The notes beneath the pieces are model-generated. The model was given only the letters and a program-made list of their open reading frames with translations, did not search any database and was not told the DNA's origin. A program made the position numbers and the translations under genes. 64,000 nucleotides of DNA from Chryseobacterium camelliae (GTDB lineage: Bacteria > Bacteroidota > Bacteroidia > Flavobacteriales > Weeksellaceae). The DNA lies in contig NZ_CP115859.1 of NCBI RefSeq assembly GCF_027920545.1, forward strand, positions 2,697,001 through 2,761,000, given 5' to 3'. This document shows, one piece after another, positions 33,272-62,382 of the stretch. How positions within the stretch are numbered: the stretch's first letter is position 1; the number at the start of each line of letters is the position of its first letter.

Positions 33272-33277
33272 CTCGAC

Positions 33278-34609: not shown

Positions 34610-34921
34610 ATGAATGACAAAGACTCACTAATTTATCATTTTTCAAAATTCGTTTCCGAGTTGGAAAACCGAATAGCTCAGAGAGTACTATCTGAACTAA
34701 CGGCACATTCTGGCTTGCTTGGAGGTGTACAGCCAAGCGAGGAAAGGCTTTTGAAAGCCGATGAACTGTGCGAACTGCTCCACATTTCTACCTCGCATTT
34801 ATATAATCTTAGAAAAAAATTCCCTGACTTCCCGATTCAATACTTCGGAGGATCACCGAGGTATAAGCTATCGGAAGTTGAGGAATTTATCAAAGTTCAA
34901 CCTTTAAAAAAGAAAAAGTAA
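34610..34921 (+). CDS. MerR/excisionase-type helix-turn-helix protein
   Basis: The 103-residue protein has a helix-turn-helix of the excisionase/HTH_17 type: LKADELCELLHISTSHLYNLRKK (about 47-69) followed by a wing-like PIQYFGGSPRYKLSEVEEFI. Such small proteins bind DNA as excisionases or regulators in Bacteroidota integrative elements. Its stop overlaps the start of the helicase-like gene by one base, so the two are translationally coupled. Confidence 0.8.
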   Translation: MNDKDSLIYHFSKFVSELENRIAQRVLSELTAHSGLLGGVQPSEERLLKADELCELLHISTSHLYNLRKKFPDFPIQYFGGSPRYKLSEVEEFIKVQPLKKKK

Positions 34922-36492: not shown

Positions 36493-36510
36493 TTATTAAA
36501 ACGTAACAAT

Positions 36511-37011
36511 ATGAATAAAAGAAAGATCCTCGTCATAGACTTGGAGACTACGGGCTTAGACCCATTTACAGACCATATAGTGAGTGTTGCTGTATCTGTT
36601 GAAAAAGGAAAGGGATTTAACATTGTTCTCCCTTTTTATAAAAACAAAGCCAAAGCGAAAGAATTCTTACAGCCAATTCTATCAATATTGGAAAATGAAA
36701 CAATTACAAAAGTCTTTCATAATGCTAAGTTTGACTTAAAATTCTTTCATCAGTACGGAATTGAAATTAAAGGTGAAATCAGAGATACCATGATTTTAGA
36801 TTATTTATCTGATCCCAATCGTAAAACCCACGGACTAAAGGAAATTTCCGAATTGCATTTGCAATATCATCAAATCTCCTACAAGGAGATGCTGAAAGAC
36901 AGGGATATTACCGAAGTTCCGAGAGAAGAATTAACAAAATATGCCTGTGAAGATACAGACCTTACTCTGCAATTATATCATTGTTTAACTCAACAATTAA
37001 ATCATAACTAA
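36511..37011 (+). CDS. DEDDy 3'-5' exonuclease (PolA proofreading domain as separate gene)
   Basis: The 166-residue protein is a single RNase H-like exonuclease domain. Motif ExoI is VIDLETTGL (D10, E12), ExoII is HNAKFDLKFF (about residue 72), and ExoIII is KYACEDTDLTLQLY with the Tyr and Asp (about 147-160). This matches the proofreading domain of family A DNA polymerases and RNase D. It is followed one base later, in another frame, by a gene for the polymerase domain, so the two probably act together as a split enzyme. Confidence 0.9.
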   Translation: MNKRKILVIDLETTGLDPFTDHIVSVAVSVEKGKGFNIVLPFYKNKAKAKEFLQPILSILENETITKVFHNAKFDLKFFHQYGIEIKGEIRDTMILDYLSDPNRKTHGLKEISELHLQYHQISYKEMLKDRDITEVPREELTKYACEDTDLTLQLYHCLTQQLNHN

Positions 37012-37012
37012 A

Positions 37013-38290
37013 ATGGATATAACTATTAATCAGTTAGAACAAGATTTAATCCGTGTTCTCGTTAAAATCGAACTTAATGGTGTAAAAATAGACATCAAAA
37101 AATTAAACGATGTAGAACATCAGTTATTGAACCGACTACAGACAACCACCGAAAAAATAACAAAAATCGCAGGAGCGGAAATCAACCTTAACAGCAACGA
37201 ACAGTTGAGTACTCTTCTTTTTGAAGCATTGGAGCTTCAACCGAAAGTTACTTCCAAAGGTAAATCAGGATTAATTTCTGTTGATAAATCGCACTTAGCA
37301 AAACTTAAAGAAGACCACGAAATTATACCGCTCATTTTGGATTATAAGAAAATCAACACCCTGTTAAGCTTCTGTAATCAATTGAAAGAAGTTCACCCGA
37401 AAACAGGACGATTACACTGTAGTTTGAATCAAATCGGTACGGCTACAGGAAGATTCAGCTGTAGTAATCCGAACTTACAGAATATTCCTAATGTAAAGCT
37501 GAAAGATAAGGACAGTGAAACTGATGAGCTTAAAATTATCGCTTCCAAATTCAGAGAGGTTTTTATTGTTGAAAAAGGCTGTGTATTGATTGGTGCGGAT
37601 TATTCGCAGATTGAGCTTAGGGTAATGACAGAAATGAGTCAGGACAGCTTTTTACTTCATGCCTACAATAATGGTGTAGATATTCACGAATTAACCGCTT
37701 CTAAAGTGTTCAATTGTAAGATTTCGGAAGTAGCGGAAGAACAGAGAAAAATTGCAAAGACGATCAACTTCGGTTTGATCTACGGAATGTCAGCTGGAGG
37801 TTTAGCAAAATCTCTTACAACAATTACAAATAAACATCATTCTAAGGAAGATGCCGAAAAGATGATGAGTGGATATTTTAACGAGTTTAACGGTGTAAAA
37901 TCCTGCTTGGAGGGATTAATAGATTACGCCGATCACTACGGATATTCAAAAACTCTGTTTGGAAGAACCAGACCAATCCCTGAACTCGCCTCTAACGATT
38001 TAGAGATTCGTGAGAGAGGAAAACGCCTTGCTAAAAACTCTCCTGTACAGGGAAGTGCAGCCGATATTATCAAAATGGCAATGGTGAACTGTGATAAAGC
38101 CATTGCAGAGAAAGGTTTGAAGTCTAAAATGATCCTTCAAATTCATGATGAACTGTTATTCGAAGTTCCTGAAAATGAAGTTGAAATTATGGAAAATCTG
38201 ATAAAACATGAGATGGAAAATGTAGTAAGACTTTCTATACCTCTTACAATAGAACTTGGCAAAGGTGCTAATTGGGCAGTTGCTCATTAA
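37013..38290 (+). CDS. Family A DNA polymerase domain (split PolA)
   Basis: The 425-residue protein contains only the palm-fingers-thumb part of DNA polymerase I. Visible features are the thumb with GTATGRFSCSNPNLQNIP (about residue 138), motif A GADYSQIELR (D196), motif B RKIAKTINFGLIYG (about 243-258) and motif C QIHDELLFEVPE (D near 379). All catalytic residues are present. The 5' nuclease domain is absent and the 3'-5' exonuclease is encoded by the gene just upstream. The window's polymerase is smaller than chromosomal PolA (about 900) and is probably dedicated to the element. Confidence 0.93.
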   Translation: MDITINQLEQDLIRVLVKIELNGVKIDIKKLNDVEHQLLNRLQTTTEKITKIAGAEINLNSNEQLSTLLFEALELQPKVTSKGKSGLISVDKSHLAKLKEDHEIIPLILDYKKINTLLSFCNQLKEVHPKTGRLHCSLNQIGTATGRFSCSNPNLQNIPNVKLKDKDSETDELKIIASKFREVFIVEKGCVLIGADYSQIELRVMTEMSQDSFLLHAYNNGVDIHELTASKVFNCKISEVAEEQRKIAKTINFGLIYGMSAGGLAKSLTTITNKHHSKEDAEKMMSGYFNEFNGVKSCLEGLIDYADHYGYSKTLFGRTRPIPELASNDLEIRERGKRLAKNSPVQGSAADIIKMAMVNCDKAIAEKGLKSKMILQIHDELLFEVPENEVEIMENLIKHEMENVVRLSIPLTIELGKGANWAVAH

Positions 38291-38318
38291 ACGGGAAATA
38301 ATTTTAAAATTTAATTAT

Positions 38319-39254
38319 ATGTTAAAAAAAGTAGAATTTATAAGTGATACAGCTGATATAGAAGCAACAAAAAACATTATAGAGTCAGAGTTATTTAACT
38401 TTCAAATTGACTTTGTAAAACTCGAAATCCCTTGTTTCGGTATTAAGTTTAAAAATCTGGTGGAACATTCAACCATTAAAAAACAATATAGTTTGAAACC
38501 TGAAGTGTGGAAACATCATAAGAATTTCAATATCTATTTCACAGAAAAGAAAGCTACACTAAAATTTAGTCTCCCATACTTCCTCCACGGCCATAATTAT
38601 TGTAAACTCGAGGCAGAGGACTTATTGAAAATAGAGGGTATTTTATCAAAAAAACTTGGAATATCTATTGGAGCTGCAAAAGTTAAAGAACTGGAGTTTG
38701 GAGCGTATGAAAACAGCAATGATGACGGCAAAAATTATGTTGACAGTATTCTAGGAATCAAAAATTACGAGCTCGAAAAATCAACTAAAGGTTTTAAGAT
38801 GTTTGGAGATAGAAAAAGACATTTCCACTATAAAATCTATGATGCTGTTGCTAATGCCAAAGCTAAAAAAACTTTTACTCTTGGAAACTATCCAGAAAAT
38901 GGTTTGATAAAACATGAAATCAAGCTAACTAATGTGAAGCCTTATTTTGAGAATTTGAAGTATAGCGACTTATATAATCCATTTGCGGATTATATTGGAA
39001 AATTGAAAAAAGATCTGATGAGTTCCCGAAAATCGTTAATTCTAAAGAATGAAAATCCTGTATTACTCCATGATACAGACCTAACTCATATTCTCTACGC
39101 AGGGCTTAAACAATATGAGAACGGTGTTGCTTCCGAAAATGTTGTTAAATCACTTTTTAATCTGGTTGAAAATTCGGGGTTAACTCCATCACAAAAGAGC
39201 AAACGCCGAAAAGCAATCAATCTCTTGGAGGATCATTACAATCAAAGGTTTTAG
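38319..39254 (+). CDS. Phage/plasmid replication protein, II/X-like
   Basis: I take the ATG at 38319 (MLKKVEFIS) as the start; the upstream TTG frame overlaps polA. The resulting 311-residue protein has KFSLPYFLHGHNY followed by LSKKLGISIGAAKVKELEFG, and later HYKIYDAVANAKAKK with a candidate active-site Tyr. These recall the gene II / X family of rolling-circle initiators of filamentous phages and small Bacteroidota plasmids. The match is by pattern only. It fits the neighbouring replication genes. Confidence 0.5.
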   Translation: MLKKVEFISDTADIEATKNIIESELFNFQIDFVKLEIPCFGIKFKNLVEHSTIKKQYSLKPEVWKHHKNFNIYFTEKKATLKFSLPYFLHGHNYCKLEAEDLLKIEGILSKKLGISIGAAKVKELEFGAYENSNDDGKNYVDSILGIKNYELEKSTKGFKMFGDRKRHFHYKIYDAVANAKAKKTFTLGNYPENGLIKHEIKLTNVKPYFENLKYSDLYNPFADYIGKLKKDLMSSRKSLILKNENPVLLHDTDLTHILYAGLKQYENGVASENVVKSLFNLVENSGLTPSQKSKRRKAINLLEDHYNQRF

Positions 39255-39375
39255 CATTTGATTGAAAATTTAAAAACTTTAACCCTAGCTGTTGTAGTAC
39301 AATAGAGTTTAGGGCTAAAGTTATAACGATAAAACAATGTCATAAAATCACAATTAACAATCTAAAATTAAAATA

Positions 39376-40623
39376 ATGGCAACATTTAAATTTATCCTGA
39401 GTAAGCTTGACTATCAGAAGAAAAAGAAAAGCCCTGAATCTCTGCTGATGCTTAGATATACTCATAAGAAAAAAACTACCCATTTTTCAACACATAAGAA
39501 TATTGACGAAAAATATTGGGATGAAAGAACACAAATGGTGAAGAGAAGCTATCCTGGTTCGGATAGGTTTAATATTTACATTAAGGGAATTCGTCAGAAA
39601 GTGGAAGATATCGTTAATGGTATGTTGATCGATGGTAATGACCCTACTACAGATTATGTAAAGTCTGTTTACAATGCTGATAAGAATGGAACGGAGAAAA
39701 AGAAGCAATATACTTTCTTTGAATATGCTGAAAAATACTTAGAAAATGGTAAGAACCGTCTTACAGCGAGTACTATAAAAAGCTATCGTACTGCCTTGAA
39801 TAAGTTTGAAGATTACCAAGAATATAACAGAAACAAATTAGACTGGATGAGTTTTGATATTGATTTCTATTATGACTTCATGGATTTCTATACAGGAATT
39901 GAAGGTTTAACCAATAATGGTTTCGGGAAAATCATCAAAAATCTTAAAGCTATATTAAATTCGGCAACTGAGGACGGCTATAATACCTTTACGGGCTATC
40001 AACACAAAAACTTTAAAACAGTAAGAGAAGATGTTAACAATATTTACCTCAGTGAAGAAGAGATTTCAAAACTTTTAAAATTGGATTTAAGTGGTGATAA
40101 AACAATGGAAAGAACAAGAGACTTATTTGTATTTGGCTGTTATACAGGGTTGAGGTTTAGTGATTTCAGCCAAGTGAAGCAAGAGCATATTATTGGTGAT
40201 ATTCTCAGAATCAAAACAATCAAGACGAGCGAATGGGTTAATATTCCGATTCTTCCGGCAGTAAGGGAGATTATGGATAAGTATAAAGATAATCCTAATA
40301 ATCTTCCGAAGTCAGTATCTAATCAGACAATGAATAGGAATCTGAAAGATTTAGGGGAAATGGCGAAAATTAATGATAAGATCCTAAAAATTAGAAATAA
40401 AGGTAAAGAAAGGATTGAAGATCATCTCTTAAAATATCAGATGATTTGTACTCATACAGCTAGGAGGTCATTTGCAACGAATATGTTTAAAAGAGGTGTT
40501 CCTACTAGGGTAATTATGAATATTACAGGACATAGAACTGAAAAAGCATTTAACAGCTATATCAAAATATCTCAAGATGAGAATGCGGAACTGTTGAAAG
40601 AATACTTTAGTAAATCAGCATAG
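39376..40623 (+). CDS. Tyrosine recombinase (integrase)
   Basis: The 415-residue protein has the Bacteroidota integrase layout. An N-terminal arm domain (about 1-100) is followed by a core-binding SAM-like domain (about 105-205, YTFFEYAEKYLENGKNRL) and a catalytic domain. The latter carries R260 in TGLRFSD, H360 and R363 in HTARRSFAT, H386 in TGHRTEKAF and the nucleophile Y395 in SYIKIS. It is the obvious candidate to have integrated the island into the CAU tRNA, although it lies 6 kb from attL. Confidence 0.93.
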   Translation: MATFKFILSKLDYQKKKKSPESLLMLRYTHKKKTTHFSTHKNIDEKYWDERTQMVKRSYPGSDRFNIYIKGIRQKVEDIVNGMLIDGNDPTTDYVKSVYNADKNGTEKKKQYTFFEYAEKYLENGKNRLTASTIKSYRTALNKFEDYQEYNRNKLDWMSFDIDFYYDFMDFYTGIEGLTNNGFGKIIKNLKAILNSATEDGYNTFTGYQHKNFKTVREDVNNIYLSEEEISKLLKLDLSGDKTMERTRDLFVFGCYTGLRFSDFSQVKQEHIIGDILRIKTIKTSEWVNIPILPAVREIMDKYKDNPNNLPKSVSNQTMNRNLKDLGEMAKINDKILKIRNKGKERIEDHLLKYQMICTHTARRSFATNMFKRGVPTRVIMNITGHRTEKAFNSYIKISQDENAELLKEYFSKSA

Positions 40624-45600: not shown

Positions 45601-46810
45601 TAGTGAGACAACTTATAATTATGCACAAGAAAAAGGAAACCAGTTATTAATTGATAAAAATATGGTTAGCATACCATTGGAAACGATCACTACTCAAACT
45701 AGTAATGGAGTTTCGAAGATACTATCTAAGACAGAGACTCTTTATCCAACTTCGTTACCAGATGCTCAGACAGGTAGTTTTGCTCTACCTAAATCGGTTA
45801 AATCATATGATCTTTCAAATAGCTCCTCCTCTTTTACAGAAGTTACATTAGATAAATATGATCATAAAGGGAATCTTATCCAATATACAACAAAAGATGG
45901 AATTCCTGTATCTGTTATTTGGGGATATAATGCTACATTACCAATAGCTAAAATTGAAGGGGCACAGTATGATAACATTGCTATGCACCTTAATGATATT
46001 ATTTCAGCAGCTGATTATGATGCTCTAAATCCCACCAATGAACAAGCTTTATTAACAGCAGAGGATAATCTAAGAAAAAACTCCAATTTGGCAAATTACC
46101 AGATTACCACTTATAGTCATGATCCTTTAATCGGTGTTACCAGTGTTACGCCTCCCTCAGGGATCAGAGAATATTATCAATATGATACCACTAATAGATT
46201 AGAAAAGATTGTAGATAATAGTAATAAAATATTAAAAGAATTTAATTATCATTATGCCAACAATTCAACAACAGTATATCATAATGTAGAAAAGAATCAG
46301 GTATTTACTAGGAACAATTGTCCCACTACCTCTATAAGTGGCACCTATAATTACGTCGTTCCTGCCGGAGCCTATTTTTCAACAGTAAGCCAATTAGCTG
46401 CCGATCAAAAAGCGTTGGATGACATCAATACGAATGGACAAAACATCGCTAATCAGAATGGATCTTGTACTCCAGTTCTATCTTGTCCATTTACATTTTC
46501 ATCTATTACTGCAAATGCTCAGTATAAATATAATGGTACAACAACGGTAAATAATAATGTCAGTTTTAATGTTTCTTTTTCTGCTTATGGAATTTGGCAA
46601 AATTGGACAGATGGGTTAAATATTGGCACAATTGAGGGTGACTGTAAACCAACATCTAATAAAGAAATTATATTTTCCGAACCAAGCTTTAACCGTCAGT
46701 GGAGAGTTTTCATAGACACAGCAGGTAATTGTACTTTAAAATTACTTTCTGGAACTGTTGATGCTTCTTCAACTAATCCGATTCTTTTACAGTTCCAATA
46801 TCAAAAATAA
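42680..46810 (+). CDS. Giant YD-repeat protein with SpvB-like N-terminus
   Basis: The 1376-residue protein has a short signal peptide (MKKKLILFFSLSILSIYGQ). Residues 40-120 contain VSLYTGVPNINIPLY and SVGLGWSLNAGGRVSHI, the start motif of SpvB/TcB-type shells in YD-repeat proteins. The body has many Tyr-Asp type beta repeats (YEYEPNTFSN, YYQYDTTNRLEKI). The C-terminus (about 1250-1376) is not an RHS core and is not recognised. It probably builds part of a hollow shell together with the RHS protein encoded next; their frames overlap only through a spurious upstream extension. Confidence 0.85.
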   Translation: MKKKLILFFSLSILSIYGQTNSSGLIQNSVNSTAPKSPDAAALFRYIETPVSLYTGVPNINIPLYTIKEGDIEIPISISYHAGGIKVTDEASSVGLGWSLNAGGRVSHIMAGANDFSLYGYYNIYPKTAYPQYGGVTGCPQLPWNTSTYNGTFYTDWFMKIDNSSQSNSTIYEGYDFQPDLFSINLPNKSYKAYLDMAKTTKPGAIKFLISEQENINFKLIGSPNPGGNYNFQVTDENGLNYYFDQGEITTRETGWNTISGLSRILSKIEDTKGNKVNFYSSNSIRNARLSGCKNTRTDFVYAPGENLGYFKENGLTDCTKLLADESYLEKIEFTNGKIEFNWTAREDVYNSKKLSSIKIYNNYKLIKQYDFNYDYFIATDNLNTNQIATWLGASNNNIFTHRLRLLNITESITNEKYSFEYNSTYNLPNKLSYSSDFWGYFNGQNNSDTFIPDPEKYIKGETVFNVTSFNKDDTNYWYEESSAPPTFDPNNGGTLIYTNFSPNGKHYLSDRRTSLYSTAGMLSAINYPTGGKTEYEYEPNTFSNFPMQSLINDNTIKEVGASHLINNINGNTIHTDNPTEFKVIGTNIKVNIFTHFGFNYLSSVGNDVKNSFWTYIKDKSTGAIIKKIYNPNVGSYQITSVMDSVILQSGTYEIGMSYNSDFTYADIQVSGGSSASDNTSKVKYVNEKSIINGIEYDYSSGAGVRIKKIKTTEKTGAAPIIKNYIYDEISNNGTKITSNGNLAELPKFYEIENRCYYSSVHTGVSSSIYSNPGCFMSLAPGDTPFKISVYEGTPNQGASTLPQGNHVGYSKVTEQIIGKGKIENYFKNDYNQSCLLMAAKGASLLIGDGDLLKQSIYDKDNMLLKEVLYNYRPNNQDGLNTYTLSGTILEPVSKFVNGVGASPGPSGAIDYASYGGLLHTYSINLWQSLLESTTTKEYFPAGSNSYVETKSLTTYNNKYLPSVQKTTYPDTSFSETTYNYAQEKGNQLLIDKNMVSIPLETITTQTSNGVSKILSKTETLYPTSLPDAQTGSFALPKSVKSYDLSNSSSSFTEVTLDKYDHKGNLIQYTTKDGIPVSVIWGYNATLPIAKIEGAQYDNIAMHLNDIISAADYDALNPTNEQALLTAEDNLRKNSNLANYQITTYSHDPLIGVTSVTPPSGIREYYQYDTTNRLEKIVDNSNKILKEFNYHYANNSTTVYHNVEKNQVFTRNNCPTTSISGTYNYVVPAGAYFSTVSQLAADQKALDDINTNGQNIANQNGSCTPVLSCPFTFSSITANAQYKYNGTTTVNNNVSFNVSFSAYGIWQNWTDGLNIGTIEGDCKPTSNKEIIFSEPSFNRQWRVFIDTAGNCTLKLLSGTVDASSTNPILLQFQYQK

Positions 46811-46820
46811 AATACAGATC

Positions 46821-49800
46821 ATGAAAAAAATCATAATTCCGATAGGCGCTTTATTATTTTCAGGTTTGGCACATGCGCAGTTAAGCCCAACCGAAAATTA
46901 CATATATACCAAAACTTATCTTAACCATACAGATCCTTCAGATGCTACTCAATTACTTAAAACCTCAGAAACGGTTCAGTATTTTGATGGATTGGGAAGA
47001 CCAAAACAGATTATTAATATAAAAGCCTCTCCAGCCAATAAAGATTTAGTAACCACTATTCCTTATGACGGATTCGGGAGACAGGCAGATTCTTGGTTGC
47101 CGGCTCCGATGTCATCATTGAATGGGGGTATACAGTCTGGTGTTGACGGTGCTGCACAAAGTTATTATAGTGACAGTACCCCGTTTACCCATCAGAACTT
47201 TGAAGCCTCTCCTCTAGACCGTGTTTTATCTCAGGTACAACCGGGGCTGGAGTGGCAAGGACATGCGGTACAATTTGGATATGACACAAATATAGATGGC
47301 GAAGTAAAGAAATATGCTACCACTTTCAATTATTCGACATTTACCTCTTCTGTTCCTGTTTCTACAACTTATGCAGCCAATCAGTTGTATAAGAATACGA
47401 TAACTGATGAAGATGGTAACAAAACCATAGAGTTCAAAAACGGTAAGGGACAAGTGGTATTGGTAAGGAAAATGCTGAACTCTACAGATAGTGCCGATAC
47501 CTATTATGTTTATAATGATTATGATCAGTTAGCATATGTTATTCCTCCTTTGGCATCTGTTATTGCTTCATTGGATCAGACTGTCCTTAACGATCTTTGT
47601 TATCAATATAAATATGATGGCAGAAATCGCTTAGTTGAGAAAAGACTTCCAGGGAAAGGCTGGGAATATATGGTGTATGATAAAGCTGACCGTCTGATTG
47701 CAACACAGGATGCCAATTTAAGACCAACTTCAACATGGTTTGTTACAAAATACGACAAATTGGGAAGAGTAGCTTATACAGGGCTTATGCCCCTTCCTGG
47801 TAAAACACGAGAATGGCTACAAGACACGACCAATCTTTTTGTAATCACTGAAAATAGAGATGCACAGGGCTTTACGATGAGCGGAATGCAGATCTATTAT
47901 ACCAACGGTTTGTATCAGCAGATAGAAACCATCCTATCTGTCAATTACTATGACACCTATCCAACAGGAACGCCTGCTTTTATCCCAACGATTCCCAACC
48001 AGAGTGCAGTATTAACAGACAATATGAGTTCAGAATTGAACACAAAAGGCTTGCCTTTAGTATCCTATGTGAAGAATATAGAAGATAACAACTGGACGAA
48101 GAACTATAGTTATTATGATACAAAAGGAAGAGTAATTGCGAAACATTCGATCAATCATTTGGGAGGCTATACCAAAACAGAATCGGAGCTGGATTTTTCA
48201 GGAATGCCACAGAAAGTTTATACTTATCACTTAAGAAAACAAGGAGAAGCAGGAATTACAGTAAAAGAACGATTTATTTATGATGCTCAAAACAGGTTAG
48301 AAAAACATTACCATAAGGTAGATGATAAAGCTGAAGAATTACTGGCTGACAATACCTATAATGATCTATCACAATTAACCAATAAGAAAGTAGGAAACAA
48401 TCTTCAAAGTATCGATTACAATTACAATATTAGGGGATGGCTAACGGAAATCAACAAAGATCAGATGAGCGTTCCTGATTTGAGTAATAAATTATTTTCA
48501 TATAAAATTAAGTACACCCAAAAAGAAGGAATTGACAATCCTGATTCTGTGCAATTTCCTGGTAAAAATGTGTCCGAAAAATACAATGGTAATATTGCAG
48601 AAGTAGATTGGAGAGCTGTGGAAACAATAGGAGTAAATCCATTATCTACTCCGAAAAGATACGGATATGTATATGATGGACTGAACAGGTTAACAGCAGG
48701 GTACTATCAAAACCCATTGAATCCGACCAGTAAAGAAAATACAGAAACCTTAAGTTATGATTTGAATGGCAATATCAGCAGTTTGTACAGGACTTCTGTA
48801 GTGGAGCCCGGAAATACAACGGCAACGCTAATCGATAATTTGGAATATATTTATGAAACGGCAAATAAAAGTAATAAGCTGACGAATATCAATGATTATG
48901 CCTACAACTATACAGGCTATGAAGGTGGAGGGAACACGATTGAATATGATCTTAACGGGAATATGACCAATATGCCGGATAAAGGGATTAGTACCATTCA
49001 GTATAATTATTTGAATCTTCCAAAGCATTTAGAATACAGCAGAGCCAGTGATGAAAGCGTGGTTATTGATACTAAATATGGTGCAGACGGAGAAAAACGA
49101 AGCAAAACAAACACCACGACTATTTTTGGTTTTATGGGCTATACGACCACGATCAAAATAACGGATTATCTGGACGGGTTCCAGTATTTATCTAGTCCGC
49201 CACCTCCTGGCGGCGGAGGATCTTCGGGTTCATTTGCTGCGAATTCTGAAACTTCAAGAGCATTGGAAATGCAGGCATATTCTTTGGATGAGGGAAGTAC
49301 AGGCAAAAATTTATTGGGAGTTAAGACAGCTGATCTACAGTTTTTTCCGACCGCCGAAGGTTTTTATGATTATGTGAAAAATCAGTACATTTACCAGTAT
49401 AAAGATCATTTAGGAAATACCAGAATAAGCTTTGGAAGAAACAGTTTAGGTAATCTTGAATTGGTAGACAAGAATGATTATTATCCTTTTGGGATGAATC
49501 ATTTGAAGAGTGGAACTTCTTTCTTTGGAACAAGTTCGTATAAGAATTACAAGTACAACGGAAAGGAGCTACAAGAGAGTGGGATGTATGATTATGGAGC
49601 AAGAATGTATATGGCAGATATTGGGAGATGGGGAGTGATTGATCCATTGGCGGAGAAATATATAAATTGGTCTCCTTATAACTATACAATTAATAATCCT
49701 TTGAGATTTATTGACCCTGATGGAAGAGGAACTAATGATGTTATTTTGAGAGGTGATCAAGCTAAAGAAGCTTTTGAGCAGTTAAAAAATGCTGCAAGTA

Positions 49801-50414
49801 ATTTAAACTTAAAAATGGATTCAAAAGGAAAAGTTACTGGAACATTAAAAAAAGGAGCAACAGCGACCGAGGCAGAGGCTGCTTTGCTTACTGCTACGAG
49901 AGATAAAAGCGTAGTAGTGGACGTTTTGGCACAAAGTAGTAACGTTATAGAATCTAGTAATACAGCAATATTTGGAGGTGGATTTATGGGAAGTAAAACA
50001 AACTCACCAATAGATGGTTCACTTGAGGGATCCCCTAACAAAATAACTCACGCAAATCAAGTCATAAATCCAATAGATTTAGGAATAATGGATACTTTTT
50101 ATAATGCTATAAAGGGAATTGGAGTTATGCATGAAATACTTGAAGCTTATGATGGTGCAATCAATAGTCCAGGTACTATTAATACTGTGGGGATAAAAAA
50201 TCGAGAAGTAAGTTGGGATAATTATCTTTCAGCCCATTATAATGCAATTGATCTTGATCCTCGAATAAATTATGGTTTGCAATCTGAAAATAAAATTTTA
50301 CCTAGGACTGCAAATGGTAATATTATAATTGAACGAACTATCTTTAAAGAGGTGAATGGTGTGAAAGTGTCTAAATCATTAGGAACTGTAGAATTAAAAC
50401 CTAGAACAAAATAA
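46821..50414 (+). CDS. RHS-repeat protein (DUF6443 type) with variable C-terminal tip
   Basis: I take the ATG at 46821 (MKKIIIPIGALLFSGLAHAQ), which gives a proper signal peptide; the longer frame overlaps the preceding gene. The protein has about 1197 residues. It opens with the DUF6443 segment (TVQYFDGLGRPKQII), continues with YD repeats, and has an RHS core near residue 910-970 (YKYNGKELQ, YDYGARMYMADIGRWGVIDPLAE, PYNYTINNPLRFIDPDGRG). The remaining 230 residues form a tip domain of unknown type; it contains MHEILEAYDG, which could be a metal site. Such tips are often toxins. Confidence 0.9.
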   Translation: MKKIIIPIGALLFSGLAHAQLSPTENYIYTKTYLNHTDPSDATQLLKTSETVQYFDGLGRPKQIINIKASPANKDLVTTIPYDGFGRQADSWLPAPMSSLNGGIQSGVDGAAQSYYSDSTPFTHQNFEASPLDRVLSQVQPGLEWQGHAVQFGYDTNIDGEVKKYATTFNYSTFTSSVPVSTTYAANQLYKNTITDEDGNKTIEFKNGKGQVVLVRKMLNSTDSADTYYVYNDYDQLAYVIPPLASVIASLDQTVLNDLCYQYKYDGRNRLVEKRLPGKGWEYMVYDKADRLIATQDANLRPTSTWFVTKYDKLGRVAYTGLMPLPGKTREWLQDTTNLFVITENRDAQGFTMSGMQIYYTNGLYQQIETILSVNYYDTYPTGTPAFIPTIPNQSAVLTDNMSSELNTKGLPLVSYVKNIEDNNWTKNYSYYDTKGRVIAKHSINHLGGYTKTESELDFSGMPQKVYTYHLRKQGEAGITVKERFIYDAQNRLEKHYHKVDDKAEELLADNTYNDLSQLTNKKVGNNLQSIDYNYNIRGWLTEINKDQMSVPDLSNKLFSYKIKYTQKEGIDNPDSVQFPGKNVSEKYNGNIAEVDWRAVETIGVNPLSTPKRYGYVYDGLNRLTAGYYQNPLNPTSKENTETLSYDLNGNISSLYRTSVVEPGNTTATLIDNLEYIYETANKSNKLTNINDYAYNYTGYEGGGNTIEYDLNGNMTNMPDKGISTIQYNYLNLPKHLEYSRASDESVVIDTKYGADGEKRSKTNTTTIFGFMGYTTTIKITDYLDGFQYLSSPPPPGGGGSSGSFAANSETSRALEMQAYSLDEGSTGKNLLGVKTADLQFFPTAEGFYDYVKNQYIYQYKDHLGNTRISFGRNSLGNLELVDKNDYYPFGMNHLKSGTSFFGTSSYKNYKYNGKELQESGMYDYGARMYMADIGRWGVIDPLAEKYINWSPYNYTINNPLRFIDPDGRGTNDVILRGDQAKEAFEQLKNAASNLNLKMDSKGKVTGTLKKGATATEAEAALLTATRDKSVVVDVLAQSSNVIESSNTAIFGGGFMGSKTNSPIDGSLEGSPNKITHANQVINPIDLGIMDTFYNAIKGIGVMHEILEAYDGAINSPGTINTVGIKNREVSWDNYLSAHYNAIDLDPRINYGLQSENKILPRTANGNIIIERTIFKEVNGVKVSKSLGTVELKPRTK

Positions 50415-54819: not shown

Positions 54820-55260
54820 ATGGACATTTGGAGTAAAGAAAAAAGAACCGAGGTGATGTCAAAAATTCGGTCTAAGAATACTAAACCAGAATTATTGTTA
54901 AGGAAATATTTGTTTAGTAAGGGGTTAAGGTATCGTATTAATTATAAAAAATTGCCAGGTAAACCAGATATTGTATTCCCAAAATATAAAACCGTTGTTT
55001 TTGTTAATGGTTGTTTTTGGCATGGTCACGATAATTGTAAAATTGCACATATTCCTAAAAGTAATGTGGAGTTTTGGACAAATAAAATCAATAACAATAA
55101 AAAAAGAGATGAAGATAATTTAAAAAGTCTTTTACTTCTTGGTTGGTGTGTGTTTATAGTTTGGGAGTGTGAAATAAATAAATTTAACCTAGAGAATTTG
55201 TATGAAAAAATAAAAAAAAGTATTTCATTAATGCTTATAATTTCTTATCAATTTAGATGA
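54820..55260 (+). CDS. vsr: Vsr-type very short patch / restriction-linked endonuclease
   Basis: The 146-residue protein matches the Vsr family. It starts DIWSKEKRTEVMSKIRSKNTKPE and has GKPDIVFPKYK with the catalytic Asp (about residue 50), VFVNGCFWHGHDNC with the zinc/catalytic His residues (about 63-75), and the ending LLLGWCVFIVWECE. Vsr nicks at T:G mismatches created when 5-methylcytosine deaminates, so it is usually paired with a C5 methyltransferase, as here (135 bp upstream of it). It may also act as a component of the defence system. Confidence 0.93.
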   Translation: MDIWSKEKRTEVMSKIRSKNTKPELLLRKYLFSKGLRYRINYKKLPGKPDIVFPKYKTVVFVNGCFWHGHDNCKIAHIPKSNVEFWTNKINNNKKRDEDNLKSLLLLGWCVFIVWECEINKFNLENLYEKIKKSISLMLIISYQFR

Positions 55261-55395
55261 ATATAATATTTTTATTTAGAGAATTATAATGTTTAAATGA
55301 TTTATTTAACTTAAAATCAGAATATTATAGGTTTGTTATTTTATTTTTAAATTGGTTGTTTTTTTATTACTTTAGTAAGTTTAATAAATCACTTT

Positions 55396-56622
55396 ATGAA
55401 GTATATAGATTTATTTGCTGGCTGTGGAGGTCTATCCTTAGGGCTTAATCAATCAGGATGGAAAGGATTGTTTGCTATTGAGAAAAGTCCTTTTGCATTT
55501 GCCACACTAGAACATAATCTTATAAATAATTTAGGTCACTTTGATTGGCCAGAATGGTTAGAACAAAAAAATCATGATATAAATGAACTATTAACACATA
55601 ATAAAAGAGAACTTAAGGAATTAAGAGGAGAGGTAGATTTAGTTGCTGGAGGACCACCATGCCAAGGCTTTTCAACAGCAGGGAGAAGGGAAGAAGGAGA
55701 TCATAGGAATAAACTTATTAATTCGTATATAAAATTTATAAGATTGGTTCAGCCTAAAATTATTTTCTTTGAAAATGTAAGGGGGTTCACACAACGATTT
55801 GAGAAAAATAAAAGTAAGGGTATTAAATATTCTGAATTTGTACAAGAAAGATTAAAGCGTTCGGGTAAGGATTTTACTGGGTATGAAGTACATGGGGAAT
55901 TAGTTGATTTTTCAAAATTTGGTGTGCCCCAAAAAAGAACACGTTTTATTTTAGTTGGTATTAGAAAAGATATCTATAATACTTATAAAGATAAATCCCC
56001 ATTACAATTCTTTGATCTAATTAAAAATCAGAGGGAGAATTTTTTAGCAAATAAAGGTATAGGACTTTCAACAAGTTTAAAAGACGCCATATCTGATTTG
56101 TTGGAAAAAAATGGAACCACTGAATGTCCAGATTCTAAAGGGTTTTTAACATCTTTTTATGGCTCCGAGAAGAGTTCTTATCAAAAAATGATGAGGTTGG
56201 GTTTACAACACCAGTTAGTTCCTGATAGCCATCGTTTTGCCAATCATGGTAAAGAAACGATTAAATTATTCCAAAACCTTTTACTTACTGCTCCAAAAGG
56301 GAAAAAAATTGGAGGGGAAGAACGGAGGATATATTCGATTAAAAAAAGGGGAATAGTTATATTAGATCCTAATCAACCTACCCCTACACTTACATCTCAT
56401 CCTGATGATTATATTCATTACTGTGAACCAAGAATATTGAGTGTTAGGGAGTATGCAAGGGTTCAAACATTTCCCGATTGGTTTGAGTTTAAAAAAAAAT
56501 ATACAACTGGTGGTAAATTAAGGATTGTAGAGGTTCCAAGATATACGCAAGTGGGAAATGCAATTCCTCCATTATTTGGTGAACAAGCAGGAAATGCCTT
56601 AAAGCAGTTACTAAATGAGTAA
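55396..56622 (+). CDS. DNA (cytosine-5) methyltransferase
   Basis: The 408-residue enzyme shows the ordered C5 motifs: I (DLFAGCGGLSLG), IV with the catalytic Cys (GGPPCQGFSTAG, about residue 88-99), VI (FFENVRGF), VIII (QKRTRFILVGIR) and X (QVGNAIPPLFGEQAGNAL). The target-recognition region lies at about 230-330. The recognition sequence cannot be told. No restriction endonuclease gene of the classical kind is adjacent. The stop codon lies inside the start of the GHKL gene (8-bp overlap), so both are one transcription unit. Confidence 0.96.
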   Translation: MKYIDLFAGCGGLSLGLNQSGWKGLFAIEKSPFAFATLEHNLINNLGHFDWPEWLEQKNHDINELLTHNKRELKELRGEVDLVAGGPPCQGFSTAGRREEGDHRNKLINSYIKFIRLVQPKIIFFENVRGFTQRFEKNKSKGIKYSEFVQERLKRSGKDFTGYEVHGELVDFSKFGVPQKRTRFILVGIRKDIYNTYKDKSPLQFFDLIKNQRENFLANKGIGLSTSLKDAISDLLEKNGTTECPDSKGFLTSFYGSEKSSYQKMMRLGLQHQLVPDSHRFANHGKETIKLFQNLLLTAPKGKKIGGEERRIYSIKKRGIVILDPNQPTPTLTSHPDDYIHYCEPRILSVREYARVQTFPDWFEFKKKYTTGGKLRIVEVPRYTQVGNAIPPLFGEQAGNALKQLLNE

Positions 56623-58921
56623 TGTAGAAAATTTTAAAATAAGTGCAGCATTAAAAGATATCATTGGTAAGGAACTTATTACTGATGAATTTGTTGCCGT
56701 ATTTGAATTAGTTAAAAATTCCTTTGATGCTAATGCTTCTAAAGTAGAGGTTATATTTGAGAATAATTATGAAAAAGAAAAAGCTAAAATCATAATTAAA
56801 GATAATGGTAAGGGAATGGATTATGATGACCTAGTCGATAAATGGTTGTTCGTTGCTTATTCAGCTAAAAAATTAGGTAGGGAAAATACAGATTATCGGG
56901 ATAAAATTAAGTCTCAAAGAGTTTTTGCTGGAGCTAAGGGAGTTGGAAGGTTTTCTTGTGATAGATTAGGGCGTTTTTTGAATTTGATAACAATAAAGGA
57001 TGAGCCTAATTATAAAATTGAGAATTTAGTTGTTAATTGGGAAGATTTTGAAAATGTAGATGATAAAGAATTTGTTAATATAAAAGTCATCCATAATACA
57101 TTAAAGGAAAATAAGTACAATTTAAAAAGTGGTACAGTTCTCGAAATTTCAGGATTAAGAGACATTTGGGATAGAGATAGGATTCTTAAATTGAAAATCT
57201 CATTGGCAAAATTGATTAATCCTAATCAAGGTAATGATAGTATTAATTTTGATATAGAAATTATTGCTGAAGATGAACGAGGGCTTGATAAAGAACCAAA
57301 TAGTAAAGGAGAAAAGCGTAATAATTTGGAGGTTGTTAATGGTAAGGTTAAGAATTCAATTTTTGAAACTTTAGACATAAAAACATCTAATATACTTGTC
57401 CATATCAATTCGGATGGAAGCCTTATTGAGACAACATTGAGGGATAGGGGAGACTTGATTTATTTTTTGAAAGAAAAAAACCCATATAAGGATTTAAAAA
57501 ACATATCCATTTACCTGTTTCAGCTTAATAGAACTGCTAAGTTTAACTTTACAAAAACAATGGGAATGGAGCCCGTTAAATATGGTTCTGTTTTTATGTA
57601 TAAAAATGGTTTTAGGGTATATCCTTATGGGGAAGAAGGTGATGATCTTTTACAAATTAATAGGAGGAAACAACAGGGGTACAATAGATTTCTAGGGACA
57701 AGAGATGTAATTGGTAGGATTGAAATAAATGGAGAACAGCCTGATCTAAGAGAAATTTCCAGCCGCGACGGAGGGTTAGTTAAAACTCCAACGTATTTTA
57801 ATCTACTTGAGTTTTTTTATGATTTTGTTTTAAAACGACTGGAAAATTATGTAGTAAATATTATTCAATGGGGTGATGAACGCTTAAATAAAGAAACAGG
57901 GGAGGTAAGGCCTGAGTTATGGGCAAAAGATGTTAAAGTTCAAATTCTTGAACTTATCTCAGGTTTTATTAATTCTAAAGATATTGTTGATATTCAATAT
58001 GAAAAAAATTTTTTAGAAATAATTGAATCTAAACAAAGTAAGAGTGTTGAGAAAATTGTAAAAAATATTTCAAAAGTTGCTGCAAAATCAGATAACCCTG
58101 AATTAGTAAAAGAAGCGAAAAAAATAGAGAAGGCGGTTAAGGAAATAAAAGCTGATGCGCAAATTGCCAATGTAAAAGCAACAAAAGAGGAAAGCCTTAG
58201 GAAGGTTAAAGAAGTTGAATTAGAAACGGAAAAATTAAAAACAGAGTTTTATAAAAAGCAGCTTGCACCAGATTCGGATGCACTAATTCATCATATTAAA
58301 AATAACAACATATCAATAAAAACAACAGTTGAAAACATATTGCAGGATATTAAATCACCTCAATATGATGAAAATGATCTGCTAAAAGATTTATCTTTTA
58401 TTTTATTCCATTGTGATAAAGCCATTAAAGCAGCTAATATTATAACTCATGTTGATCTATCTGAAAGTGATGCGCAAAACGTCGAATTGAGTGGCTTTTT
58501 AGGAGGTTATATTGATAATTATCAAGAGATAACAAGTACTAAAAGAACAAAAATCAGGTATGAGCATGAAGGAAAAGGTTTTAGAATGATGATAAGTAAA
58601 ATAGAACTCGCAATTATTATAGATAATCTTGAAGATAATTCATATAAATGGGGTGCTAAAAATATTTATATTAAAACAATTACAAATAATCCTCGTAGCA
58701 TGACATTAATTTATTCTGATGATGGTAAAGGGTTATCAGATAAGTATTTGAGTGATCCTAGCCAAATTTTAAGATTTAAAGAAACAGATAGTAAAAATGG
58801 AACAGGTTTAGGTTTGTATGTTGTTCATCAAGTTTTGGATAGAATGGGAGCCTCTATAGAATTTATTGGTAATAATATTTATCAAAAAGGGGCTAATTTT
58901 AAAATTGAATTTATCCGTTAA
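56615..58921 (+). CDS. Double GHKL ATPase: MORC/Hsp90-like plus histidine-kinase-like
   Basis: The 768-residue protein carries two ATP-binding GHKL domains. The N-terminal one has E31/N35/D38 in FELVKNSFDAN, D63 in DNGKGM and the lid loop GAKGVGRFS (106-114), then a RVYPYGEEGDD/REISSRDGG region (about 325-390), as in MORC-like ATPases of restriction loci. A coiled coil follows (about 470-550) with a His-rich helix LIHHIKNNN (about 555-563). The C-terminal domain has IIIDNLEDNSYKWGA (about 665-680), DDGKGL (about 702) and NGTGLGL (about 728). The last three elements look like a sensor kinase. It overlaps both neighbours in the operon. Confidence 0.88.
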   Translation: MSNVENFKISAALKDIIGKELITDEFVAVFELVKNSFDANASKVEVIFENNYEKEKAKIIIKDNGKGMDYDDLVDKWLFVAYSAKKLGRENTDYRDKIKSQRVFAGAKGVGRFSCDRLGRFLNLITIKDEPNYKIENLVVNWEDFENVDDKEFVNIKVIHNTLKENKYNLKSGTVLEISGLRDIWDRDRILKLKISLAKLINPNQGNDSINFDIEIIAEDERGLDKEPNSKGEKRNNLEVVNGKVKNSIFETLDIKTSNILVHINSDGSLIETTLRDRGDLIYFLKEKNPYKDLKNISIYLFQLNRTAKFNFTKTMGMEPVKYGSVFMYKNGFRVYPYGEEGDDLLQINRRKQQGYNRFLGTRDVIGRIEINGEQPDLREISSRDGGLVKTPTYFNLLEFFYDFVLKRLENYVVNIIQWGDERLNKETGEVRPELWAKDVKVQILELISGFINSKDIVDIQYEKNFLEIIESKQSKSVEKIVKNISKVAAKSDNPELVKEAKKIEKAVKEIKADAQIANVKATKEESLRKVKEVELETEKLKTEFYKKQLAPDSDALIHHIKNNNISIKTTVENILQDIKSPQYDENDLLKDLSFILFHCDKAIKAANIITHVDLSESDAQNVELSGFLGGYIDNYQEITSTKRTKIRYEHEGKGFRMMISKIELAIIIDNLEDNSYKWGAKNIYIKTITNNPRSMTLIYSDDGKGLSDKYLSDPSQILRFKETDSKNGTGLGLYVVHQVLDRMGASIEFIGNNIYQKGANFKIEFIR

Positions 58922-59625
58922 TGCTAGAAAGATATTTGATATTGGTTGATGATACCGATCAGTCCCAGACATTAAGGAATTTGGAGAGAAAGTTACGTGA
59001 AAATGAATCCATAAAATTGGAGTATGTTCACATTAATACTAAGCTAGCTAAATACCAAGTATATAATGAGACAAATGATACTCAAGAAACCGATGTGAGC
59101 AAAATTATAGGTGATATAACAGCAGTTTATTTTTTTAAATGGGCAGATACAATTGCTTTAGATTATAATTTGAGTGATACTCTTAAAGGATTTGAATTAG
59201 CTGCCCATATACGAAAAAATGGGTATAAAAAAGCAAAAGAAATAATCTTATATTCAGGTAAAATTGAAGATGCTATAACTGAAATTCTAAGAAAAGACGA
59301 TTTAAAGGAAAAAATTAATGCTATAAAAATGTTAAATGAATCAAATATTCATTTTGCTACAAGAGGAGATGATTTTAGTAGTTCAGTAATTAATCATATT
59401 AAAAAGAATCCTGAATTTGATTTTGATTATGAATTACTTAAATGGATGTATAAATTTAGCGACAAGCAATTTATAGGAGTGTTTCCTAAATATGATAAAA
59501 AATCTCTAGGTGAAATAGCACAAGAAATAGAAGGAAATACCTCCTTAAGCAATGAATTTAAAAAGGCCCTTTTAGAGCAATTATTTTCAATTTTAGTACA
59601 AATTAATGAATTGGAGGAACTGTGA
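58921..59625 (+). CDS. Atypical receiver-domain protein
   Basis: The 234-residue protein starts YLILVDDTDQ (D10, D11), like the acidic pair of response-regulator receivers. ALDYNLSDTLKGFELAAHIRKNG (about 79-101) resembles the phospho-acceptor strand with D81 as candidate acceptor, and IILYSGK gives the Ser/Thr position. The conserved Lys of classical receivers is not clearly present. The C-terminal 70 residues are a helical extension of unknown type. The gene overlaps the double-GHKL gene by one base, so the protein is the natural partner of its kinase-like C-terminal domain. Confidence 0.75.
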   Translation: MLERYLILVDDTDQSQTLRNLERKLRENESIKLEYVHINTKLAKYQVYNETNDTQETDVSKIIGDITAVYFFKWADTIALDYNLSDTLKGFELAAHIRKNGYKKAKEIILYSGKIEDAITEILRKDDLKEKINAIKMLNESNIHFATRGDDFSSSVINHIKKNPEFDFDYELLKWMYKFSDKQFIGVFPKYDKKSLGEIAQEIEGNTSLSNEFKKALLEQLFSILVQINELEEL

Positions 59626-60352
59626 TATATTTTGTATTTATCCTCACGATAGAACAACTTTCTTTTTGGATAGAATTGTGAGTCACCTGAACATGGAATT
59701 AGGAGATAAATTTCATTGTTTTAAAGTTAAATTAAATGATTCTTCTCATAATGAATGTTTGAAAATCATAAATGAAATGGTTGGTAAATTTATTATTTTT
59801 TTGGGACATGGAAGAAGTGATGCCTTATATGGTGCTTGTGGAGATCAAGGAGATAATATTTTCATTAGTGATGATTTAAAAGAAGAAGATCCAATTTACT
59901 ATGATAGACAAGATTTCATAACAATCGAGAATAGTAACGTATTTAATCAAAATATTATTTTTTCTTTATCATGTAATTCGAACATTATAAAAAAAAGTAT
60001 AGGAGAATCCTCTATTAGGAATGGCGCTGTGTCCTTTGTTGGTTTTGGTAATATACAAACAGACTATGAAATTGATAAAAATTTTACAAAAAGAGAGATA
60101 GCTATTTTTAATGGGATACTTGTAAAAATAATTAAAAAGAGTATTGTTTATGCATATCAAAAAAAATATACAGTTGAAAAATTGACGGATATCATCAAAA
60201 TAATGACTAATAAAGAAATAAATTGCTTACTTACAAAACATAAGGGTATTAAGTATAGACATAGAATTGCTTGCCATTTATATAACTTCAAGAACGAAAT
60301 TCAAATTTTTGGCAATAAACATATAACATTGACAAATTTTTCTAATAACTGA
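59606..60352 (+). CDS. Caspase/CHAT-like peptidase
   Basis: The 248-residue protein shows two core strands of the caspase-like fold. FIIFLGHGRSDALYG carries the candidate catalytic H68, and NIIFSLSCNSNII carries the candidate nucleophile C123; GAVSFVGFGNIQTD follows, as in CHAT and C25/C14-type peptidases. The start codon lies 20 bases inside the receiver gene, so it is translated with it. The natural reading is a protease effector controlled by the upstream sensor and receiver. Fold assignment is by motif, and specificity is unknown. Confidence 0.7.
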   Translation: MNWRNCDIFCIYPHDRTTFFLDRIVSHLNMELGDKFHCFKVKLNDSSHNECLKIINEMVGKFIIFLGHGRSDALYGACGDQGDNIFISDDLKEEDPIYYDRQDFITIENSNVFNQNIIFSLSCNSNIIKKSIGESSIRNGAVSFVGFGNIQTDYEIDKNFTKREIAIFNGILVKIIKKSIVYAYQKKYTVEKLTDIIKIMTNKEINCLLTKHKGIKYRHRIACHLYNFKNEIQIFGNKHITLTNFSNN

Positions 60353-60404: not shown

Positions 60405-61157
60405 TTAAAGCCATGTTTTTTTTATTTGTTGAATATGTGCATTCAGAGATTTTGAAAATATTTCATCGTCAATTTCTTCAGTTTTTTCAAAGCATTCAAT
60501 TAGTTTTTTACTCTGTTCCCAAATTTGGAACAATTCTGAAATTTTTGGTTTTAAAGCAATGGAATTGTCTGGAGTATAATGCACTATTTTATTTCTTAAA
60601 GAAAACAAATTTGATATTTCATTTAAATGTAATTTATTATTTGCAATTTCTTCTTTAAAAATGAATATTAATCTTTCCATAATCTTGGAAATTGAAATTC
60701 TTGCATAACTGAAATCATTAATTTTACCACTTTGATAAAGATAAAGTAAGTGTCTGTTTGTCAGTGTTTCTATAAAGAATCCAAAATTATTTAAATGACC
60801 TAAGATTTCAATTGAAGTCATTTGATGATTTTTATTGAATTTATGATTGTTTTTTTGAGAATAAATTTGCGACTTTTTCCATGCATCCTTAAAGGATTGT
60901 ATAGTTTGTTCTGTTAGAAACTTTATTTCTTTAGATTTTAAATTTTCAATAATATTATCGGATACAAATTCCGAAGATTTTTTCACAAGTTCTTCATCCT
61001 CTTTAGTAGGGTCTATTTTTTCAATAAGCTGGCCGAAAATCATATTCCTTAATTCAGAATTAAAGCATGAATGTATATATGTGAAAGACTCTGTTAAATA
61101 AAATGCTGCTCCTTCTGCTAGTTTTGCGTATGTTTCAATATCGTGCTTATTACTCAT
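60405..61157 (-). CDS. HEPN-like helical protein
   Basis: The 250-residue protein is all-helical. It has the HEPN RNase-type motif R188-N-K-I-V-H193 within LFSLRNKIVHYTPDN, where the N after R is typical of active HEPN domains. No membrane segment is present. It lies on the strand opposite to the caspase-like operon, tail to tail, with the gene for a second HEPN-like protein 142 bp upstream of it. An RNase or abortive-infection role is a reasonable inference, but surface or regulatory HEPN proteins exist too. Confidence 0.6.
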   Translation of the reverse strand: MSNKHDIETYAKLAEGAAFYLTESFTYIHSCFNSELRNMIFGQLIEKIDPTKEDEELVKKSSEFVSDNIIENLKSKEIKFLTEQTIQSFKDAWKKSQIYSQKNNHKFNKNHQMTSIEILGHLNNFGFFIETLTNRHLLYLYQSGKINDFSYARISISKIMERLIFIFKEEIANNKLHLNEISNLFSLRNKIVHYTPDNSIALKPKISELFQIWEQSKKLIECFEKTEEIDDEIFSKSLNAHIQQIKKTWL

Positions 61158-61299: not shown

Positions 61300-62382
61300 T
61301 TAAACTTGTTCGCTCAGTTTTTTCTTCTTACCATTTTTCAAAACATAATTAACAATACTCATTTTACTATATTGCATTGCTGCTATTAATTCATTGTTAT
61401 GTTCTTCACGAGTTTTAGGATTGTCCCATTCAAAATACTGGTCTCCAGTTAGTAAGCTTCCTGTATGGGCTATTTTTGATCTTCGGCTATATAATTTATT
61501 AATTATAGTTTTAAATCTTTCATCAGCAGAAAGATATTTTTCAAGATACAACTTAATTTGCTGACTAATCCCCCATATTGGTTTACCACAACTTTTGCAA
61601 TGATAGCTCGATGATTTAATAGATTGACAGGATTTACATTCGAATTCAATTTCTTCTTTATTTACCTTTCCTTCCAAATTAGTCATAGCTTCAATGCTTG
61701 AAATAAATGCAAGAAATGCAAGACTTTTCATAGAGTTTCTTATATTTTGACCATTATAAATTAGAGTTACAGCTGAGTCAAAATATTGTTTTTGTAAAGT
61801 ATCTAACTTTTCTATAAATTGAAAAAATAGCTTAGTATATTGAGAAAATGTAACCTCATTATTTCTTTCATTATCTAAATCTGGGTTTGTATAGTATTTC
61901 GAGTGTTCGATTGGTTCAATTTCATCCCCACTAAGCGTTGAAAATTCTTTAATAATCATTTTATCCTTTAAACTCTCATCATAATAAACCTTTGCTCCAT
62001 ATTTACAAGAGAATTCTTCTGAAGAAGCTCCATTTAAATTCAAAAACCACCCTTGATCATTGACGTTATAGACAAAAAAATGAAAATTTGAAACAACTGA
62101 CAGTAATTTTAGAATATAAATCATAGTTCTGTACTCATAATCAGATTCGGAAAGAAACTTTTTTGTTTTGTCGTCAATTGTTTCAAGTACATCTTCATAC
62201 GAAAAATAGCTTATATTGTCCTTATTAACTTGATATTCTAAAATAAAAGGGTAATGTGTTGTATTTATATCGGAATCAATATAGTCTTCTAATGGTATTA
62301 TCTGAAACCAGTCGCAGTTAAATCCTTTTTTTATTTTCTTATTACAGAAACATATTGCTCTTTTATAGTAGATATTTGACAT
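61300..62382 (-). CDS. Apea-like HEPN protein with zinc ribbon
   Basis: The 360-residue protein has an unrecognised N-terminal half (about 1-190), then a helical segment with SSIEAMTNLEGKV (about 230). A four-Cys zinc ribbon CKSCQSI ... CKSCGKP (about 248-270) is inserted before the HEPN-type motif R301-S-K-I-A-H306 in YSRRSKIAHTGSLLTG. The combination, with the ribbon inside the helical domain, is like the Apea-like HEPN proteins annotated in many bacteria, several near defence genes. Target unknown. Confidence 0.65.
   Translation of the reverse strand: MSNIYYKRAICFCNKKIKKGFNCDWFQIIPLEDYIDSDINTTHYPFILEYQVNKDNISYFSYEDVLETIDDKTKKFLSESDYEYRTMIYILKLLSVVSNFHFFVYNVNDQGWFLNLNGASSEEFSCKYGAKVYYDESLKDKMIIKEFSTLSGDEIEPIEHSKYYTNPDLDNERNNEVTFSQYTKLFFQFIEKLDTLQKQYFDSAVTLIYNGQNIRNSMKSLAFLAFISSIEAMTNLEGKVNKEEIEFECKSCQSIKSSSYHCKSCGKPIWGISQQIKLYLEKYLSADERFKTIINKLYSRRSKIAHTGSLLTGDQYFEWDNPKTREEHNNELIAAMQYSKMSIVNYVLKNGKKKKLSEQV

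Follow-up and report, generated by a model that had tools for sequence, protein, structure and literature searches.

A 64,000-nt stretch of the Chryseobacterium camelliae genome (GCF_027920545.1, contig NZ_CP115859.1, forward strand 2,697,001-2,761,000; hereafter the window, whose numbering is used for all positions in it) was analyzed for a candidate defence operon encoding a DNA methylase, a sensor kinase, a receiver and a caspase-like protease. The sensor kinase, a paraMORC-type ATPase fused to a histidine kinase (768 aa), is referred to as PMHK. The following features were located:

54820-55260, + strand: Vsr mismatch endonuclease (PF03852, 8e-36; TIGR00632), a neighbour outside the core
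55396-56622, + strand: C5-cytosine DNA methyltransferase, 408 aa (PF00145, 3.5e-54; GPPCQ motif, C89)
56615-58921, + strand: PMHK (double-GHKL), whole gene
56615-58234, + strand: sensor half of PMHK, a paraMORC-like GHKL ATPase, aa 1-540 (HATPase_c_3, 1.1e-20)
58235-58921, + strand: histidine-kinase half of PMHK, DHp followed by HATPase_c (8.7e-16), an exchangeable module; H559 at 58289-58291
58921-59625, + strand: receiver protein, 234 aa; phospho-acceptor D81 at 59161-59163
59606-60352, + strand: caspase-like (CHAT/clan CD-type) cysteine protease, 248 aa, the predicted effector; H68 at 59807-59809, C123 at 59972-59974

The genes from methylase to protease form a four-gene operon (55396-60352, + strand) with successive overlaps of exactly 8, 1 and 20 bp; a gap of 135 bp separates Vsr from the methylase gene. 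An earlier note on this DNA, made from the sequence alone, had listed five open reading frames (ORFs) with these overlaps and had taken methylase, ATPase, receiver and protease for a single operon. All five were found on the + strand exactly where it had placed them, and the operon is upheld by the overlaps and by a gene order that recurs in other genomes.

The two halves of PMHK were assigned to different families. The Pfam matches covered aa 27-158 (HATPase_c_3) and aa 663-765 (HATPase_c); at a limit of E 1 the scan also listed DMPK_coil (0.076). The sensor half was matched by MutL models of NCBIfam and, at aa 28-202, by the BbrUII/HgiDII restriction-enzyme model (NF050001; 1.1e-17) with 63.8 bits, which is under the cut-off of 550 and does not amount to a full-length match to the restriction subunit. 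The ATP-site motif residues of this half were invariant in an alignment of eight rows (A1). The kinase half was matched by sensor-kinase models of NCBIfam; its N, G1 and G2 box residues were invariant in the same alignment, and the phospho-acceptor His aligned with H559 was retained in all 23 loci from which the trees described below were built. These residues follow the DHp and N/G-box logic of histidine kinases, and the proposed combination of a MORC/MutL-like ATPase with a sensor-kinase half is supported.

In the receiver, D81 was invariant in an eight-row alignment (A3). Furthermore, the profile of the window receiver aligned with that of Response_reg-matching relatives (hhalign E 1.5e-5, probability 80%), and on both grounds its initial assignment was retained. 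The sequence features required for a phosphorelay, namely acceptor His, N, G1 and G2 boxes and receiver Asp, are all present; phosphotransfer between the two proteins is predicted.

Scans of Pfam, NCBIfam and PADLOC with a limit of E 1 yielded nothing for the protease. Its predicted structure (pLDDT 91) resembles the folds of CHAT proteins, gingipains, separases and caspases. H68 and C123 were invariant in 28 of 28 rows of an alignment (A2) consisting of the window protein, its counterpart in locus L007 and 26 of 29 database matches; omitted were P0001, which is the window's own protein, and the short P0010 and P0011. Both residues were also kept in nine of nine operons of the protease type. 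Fold and invariant dyad agree with the caspase-like protein that had been proposed, and the protease presumably acts as the effector. A second, different caspase-like protein was observed in L056 (4282-4890, - strand), where it follows a receiver-like gene and shows YSHG and CSC motifs by inspection; its similarity to the window protease profile is weak (E 0.0015).

The distribution of the operon was analyzed across genomes. Scanning genome contigs for PMHK yielded seven loci (L001-L007), each with a methylase gene immediately 5' of the PMHK gene. Searches with aa 1-540 gave matches in 35 of 320 genomes of the window's family group (37 places, of which the 36 outside the window were retrieved) and in 37 of 395 genomes sampled from the phylum (42 places; 20 regions were retrieved, including all at E 1e-60 or better). 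The wider set comprises 62 loci; L108 duplicates L002 and was left out of this number, and L120 and L122 are incomplete. Nine loci are of the protease type (the window, L001, L007, L042, L043, L044, L045, L112 and L115), and all nine show the order methylase-PMHK-receiver-protease with overlaps or gaps of at most 20 bp; in L042, the sensor and kinase parts of PMHK are two ORFs. This recurrence of one order exceeds chance. Because the protease-type loci had been found via PMHK, the protease was searched separately: five of the 320 genomes matched, the window's included, and in all five the match was the operon gene that follows the receiver. The earlier note had looked to a conserved neighbourhood as a check; the genes do stay together, and in these 320 genomes the protease was not found outside the operon. 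The four-gene set is real and conserved, and it is modular, as the comparisons of its parts revealed.

The PCQ motif of the first gene is typical of C5 methylases. With the exception of L048, all tree-set loci (22 of 23) have a methylase gene immediately 5' of PMHK, and this position suggests that the methylase is cognate to a putative restriction partner. No Vsr gene was found in the flanks of L001-L007; it adjoins one of the eight other protease-type loci (L045) and is missing beside seven. Vsr suits a C5 methylase as a neighbour and is not a stable member of the system, to which the earlier note had assigned it. A scan of 63 of 66 flanking ORFs from 19 loci (omitting L040:8754-9500, the Vsr of L045, L115:14021-14501 and ORFs of more than 1600 aa) reached 151 PADLOC families at 1e-10, as compared to three for a control of 35 of 38 window ORFs (omitting two long and one antisense ORF), which is weak support because families and not genes were counted, related models were counted multiply and the control consists mostly of core genes of one genome.

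Different outputs are attached to this set. Close relatives carry a receiver-HEPN protein or a lone receiver in place of the protease, and distant relatives have MBL or HNH proteins as output. The Rx4H motif was present in 11 of 11 HEPN-type proteins; L113, L114 and L116 were assigned to the receiver-HEPN type by motif. Eight of ten relatives on contigs classed as viral carry PMHK together with receiver-HEPN. A gene for an HNH_2-type nuclease follows the effector gene in L007, L109 and L110, i.e. in operons of both output types (Pfam in L007 and L110; PADLOC HNH 1.4e-90 for L007; BLAST for L109); it may be an optional restriction enzyme.

A cassette that includes the output has been exchanged at the boundary between the sensor and kinase halves. 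The PMHKs of the window and of the HEPN-type locus L002 are 81% identical in the sensor half and 26% identical in the kinase half. In 60-residue segments, identity to L002 was 93-67% for starts 1-481, then 48% and then 10-38%; compared with three HEPN-type loci, it was 10-38% from start aa 521 onward. Identity to the protease-type locus L001 was 50-82% along the whole PMHK; with L007 it dropped to 10-17% at 421-481 and recovered in the kinase half.

Phylogenetic trees were calculated without L113, L114 and L116, and without L048 for the methylase. The kinase-half tree unites the nine protease loci in a single branch (99/98) and requires two changes, the minimum, among the three output labels. 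The sensor-half tree requires five changes and the methylase tree eight; a single protease clade was rejected for both (approximately unbiased (AU) test, p 2.9e-7 and p 1.9e-4, respectively). Distances, from which the very divergent methylase of L111 was additionally excluded by omitting this locus, correlated between histidine kinase and receiver with 0.86 for protease loci (n = 9) and 0.92 for HEPN loci (n = 10). The correlation was 0.78 between histidine kinase and protease and 0.10 between methylase and protease. Kinase, receiver and protease thus closely co-diverge. As far as the literature was searched, these comparisons give the first evidence of an output exchanged as a cassette. Methylase and PMHK are separated by a second break: the methylases of L045 and L046 are 95% identical, their PMHKs 40%. 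The respective values are 89% and 34% for L007 and L110, with downstream HNH_2 genes that are 78% identical, and 83% and 34% for L115 and L039.

More distant relatives are linked to several DNA marks. The PMHK of L060 (5505-8204) opens with an EcoRII-N DNA-recognition domain (1.2e-16); its gene neighbours encode Vsr, a C5 methylase, a regulator and an MBL-fold protein. SspC and SspD lie directly before PMHK in L050, L052, L057 and L119 (SspC E = 0, SspD 1e-83 to 1e-91), and SspB was matched in three of the three of these loci that were scanned; PMHK is followed there by a receiver-like regulator and a protein of about 250 aa of no assigned family. Seven loci (L049, L051, L054, L055, L059, L062 and L068) carry, downstream of PMHK, a regulator, a protein of about 250 aa and an Eco57I-type methylase, which was tested with Pfam in L049 and by BLAST to L049 in the other six. 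Eco57I-type methylases modify adenine N6. Regulator and ~250-aa protein are homologous between the Eco57I-methylase loci and the Ssp-linked loci; hence, one type of reader-output module appears with two different DNA modifications. As an association, this is the strongest hint that PMHK may read DNA marks. The PMHKs of both groups are distant, with 26-32% identity to the window sensor half. Known readers of the Ssp mark are SspE and SspFGH, neither of which is known to be a PMHK; the paraMORC histidine kinase is a candidate for a new Ssp reader.

PADLOC v2 matched no named system beyond methylase and Vsr; the GHKL protein gave a weak match to MzaB only. Bellieny-Rabelo et al. (2021, PMC8011034) published a core of C5 methylase, HATPase_c_3/histidine-kinase protein and response-regulator-like protein. 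They presented it as a two-component-like set associated with restriction-modification (R-M) loci, comprising HEF_HK (PF19191) and Response_reg_2 (PF19192) with C5 methylases, Vsr and HATPase_c_3. The view that the set is not a described system therefore stands as to named systems and does not as to this core. In the searchable text of that article the terms caspase and HEPN are absent, and it describes no effector exchange, protease or defence claim. Protease, output exchange and Ssp link were found in no paper among the matches listed for the open-licence literature, bioRxiv preprints aside. Common to the published set and the window are the HATPase_c_3-kinase-HATPase_c protein, a neighbouring regulator, a C5 methylase and often Vsr; unlike the published proteins, the 768-aa kinase lacks PF19191 and the 234-aa receiver lacks PF19192 (Pfam, up to E 1). 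L070 is a true member of the published set (HEF_HK 2.9e-20, Response_reg_2 4.3e-29), and its sensor half is 34% identical to that of the window, so the two seem to be remote members of a single larger family. The window system looks like a distant branch of the published family, which has no assigned function, and has a putative protease effector.

The window operon was further compared with other defence systems. The logic of Detocs, to which the earlier note had likened it, recurs here as histidine kinase, receiver and putative toxic effector in one operon. Detocs is a three-gene family whose best-described effector, as far as the available text of PMC11249213 goes, is a PNP cleaving ATP, whereas the window has a GHKL/MutL-like sensor, a DNA methylase and a caspase-like protease. 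No Detocs-named model was among the PADLOC matches, the Detocs content of this 2023 library not being established. With paraMORC restriction systems (Iyer et al. 2008, PMC2292703) and the HgiDII/BbrUII enzymes, the window shares the GHKL ATPase (aa 28-202), the methylase and the Vsr neighbour. The paraMORC families are described there in R-M operons with helicases, nucleases or fused restriction endonuclease or TIR domains, and the accessible text names no receiver, HEPN or caspase; in contrast, the C-terminal part of the window protein is a histidine kinase, and the operon itself has no nuclease, the adjacent Vsr aside. An independent HEPN link comes from Anantharaman et al. (2013, PMC3710099), who, by the portion of that article available, report paraMORCs with fused HEPN domains of the Ymh family. 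The likeness to the MZA system is confined to the MzaB match of the sensor ATPase, which is far under the NCBIfam cut-off (5.8e-5, 21.6 bits versus 850, about 50 residues; PADLOC E 0.011). Unlike the proteases of SAVED-CHAT and of Craspase TPR-CHAT, that of the window stands alone beside a receiver, unfused to SAVED or TPR, and has another trigger. SspBCD phosphorothioation defence likewise couples a DNA mark to a separate reader module, and its components adjoin PMHK at the four distant loci named above; the window has a C5 methylase instead. Finally, a figure legend of the DefensePredictor article (PMC13092281) lists HATPase and REC with the abbreviations used for systems that are predicted and still to be validated, and, judged by this legend, one of these may overlap with the window system.

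Additionally, the surroundings of the locus in the window were inspected. Downstream, two genes with HEPN-type motifs by inspection (60405-61157, - strand, RNKIVH; 61300-62382, - strand, RRSKIAH) gave no significant family match and are possibly further defence genes of the same island. Upstream lie a large Rhs/teneurin-like repeat protein (46758-50414), a tyrosine-recombinase-like gene (39376-40623) and a PolA-like polymerase gene (37013-38290), all by inspection, and a tRNA-Met (33189-33263). The PADLOC RTasPolA model (DRT) was matched by one of 35 scanned window ORFs (best E 1.1e-37), presumably the PolA-like gene. The region 33189-40623 suggests an integrated element between core genes and the locus; an exact repeat of the tRNA 3' end of at least 14 nt was not found downstream.

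We propose that the operon is a signalling form of restriction directed against phages, in which a His-Asp relay would connect a check of DNA marks to an exchangeable toxic effector; judged from gene content and comparison, we give this a probability of about 55%. The methylase would mark host DNA, and the paraMORC half, related to the HgiDII/BbrUII-type ATPase, would inspect DNA. On unmarked invading DNA, an ATP-driven clamp would activate the fused kinase half, H559 would become phosphorylated and pass its phosphate to D81, whereupon the receiver would activate the caspase-like protease. Cleavage of cell or phage proteins, by which the cell may be killed or arrested, would then stop the infection. 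Relatives would use a homologous front end to drive a predicted HEPN RNase, MBL or HNH protein. DNA binding and reading of methylation by PMHK are proposed because of its HgiDII-like ATPase and of the EcoRII-N fusion in L060.

Several observations weigh against this proposal. The receiver is without a significant Pfam match, and NCBIfam and PADLOC gave none either; at its active site, where lysine usually serves after strand 5, the column is Arg in eight of eight rows of A3 and the usual Lys is not conserved (inspection). Many distant loci have outputs without assignable function. The trees comprise 22-23 rows with long branches flagged by the tool, above all L111. Output labels are still clustered on the sensor half (five changes, whereas shuffled labels needed 9.6 on average and in none of 200 shufflings so few), and sensor and kinase halves co-diverge (0.72 for protease loci, 0.89 for HEPN loci); apparently, exchange is not free. 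The methylase tree contradicts the sensor tree, so these two components are not necessarily tied to each other.

This last point, the near-identical methylases beside very different PMHKs in the three pairs of loci given above and a methylase on the opposite strand in L113, L114 and several viral-contig loci would be expected if relay and protease worked as proposed and the trigger were a phage protein, DNA ends or DNA structure, with the methylase as a separate defence layer or a partner kept for other reasons. We consider this unlikely, though it fares best among the alternatives: a methylase or other modification module lies beside PMHK in all tree-set loci but one, the wider set holds DNA-modification modules of three kinds, and both the HgiDII-like ATPase and the EcoRII-N fusion point to DNA.

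The two-component pair might instead control expression or activity of R-M genes, the protease being a regulator and not a killer; the available text of PMC8011034 does speculate on signalling cascades governing R-M systems. No DNA-binding output domain was found among 15 regulator-position proteins scanned, and the identifiable outputs are HEPN-type, caspase-like, MBL and HNH proteins; such a toxic-type series speaks against a mere regulator of R-M genes. Moreover, the window operon contains no nuclease other than the neighbouring Vsr, and we regard this explanation as improbable. A selfish addiction module, in which loss of the methylase frees the sensor and the protease fires in segregants with phage defence as a secondary effect, is very improbable: R-M systems have been portrayed as selfish elements that can kill a cell which loses them (PMC8011034, available text) and relatives lie on contigs classed as viral, but the mechanism would be common to this and to signalling restriction, so that the sequence cannot separate both, and nothing favours addiction over defence.

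Restriction is usually viewed as a choice between cutting and not cutting. If signalling restriction is correct, a DNA check placed on a phosphorelay would allow one detection step to feed any toxic output, and bacteria could swap the output with the detector untouched. R-M, two-component signalling and caspase-like immunity would be joined in one compact operon, and a function would be suggested for a response-regulator family published in 2021 without one. More tentatively, at somewhat less than even odds, a general class may exist across bacteria in which a paraMORC histidine kinase replaces the restriction nuclease, senses missing 5-methylcytosine, N6-methyladenine or phosphorothioate and uses a His-Asp relay to set off one of several interchangeable suicide effectors (caspase-like protease, HEPN RNase, MBL, HNH and others); kinase, receiver and effector would move together as a cassette. 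The finding thereby raises the question whether a histidine kinase may read DNA methylation.

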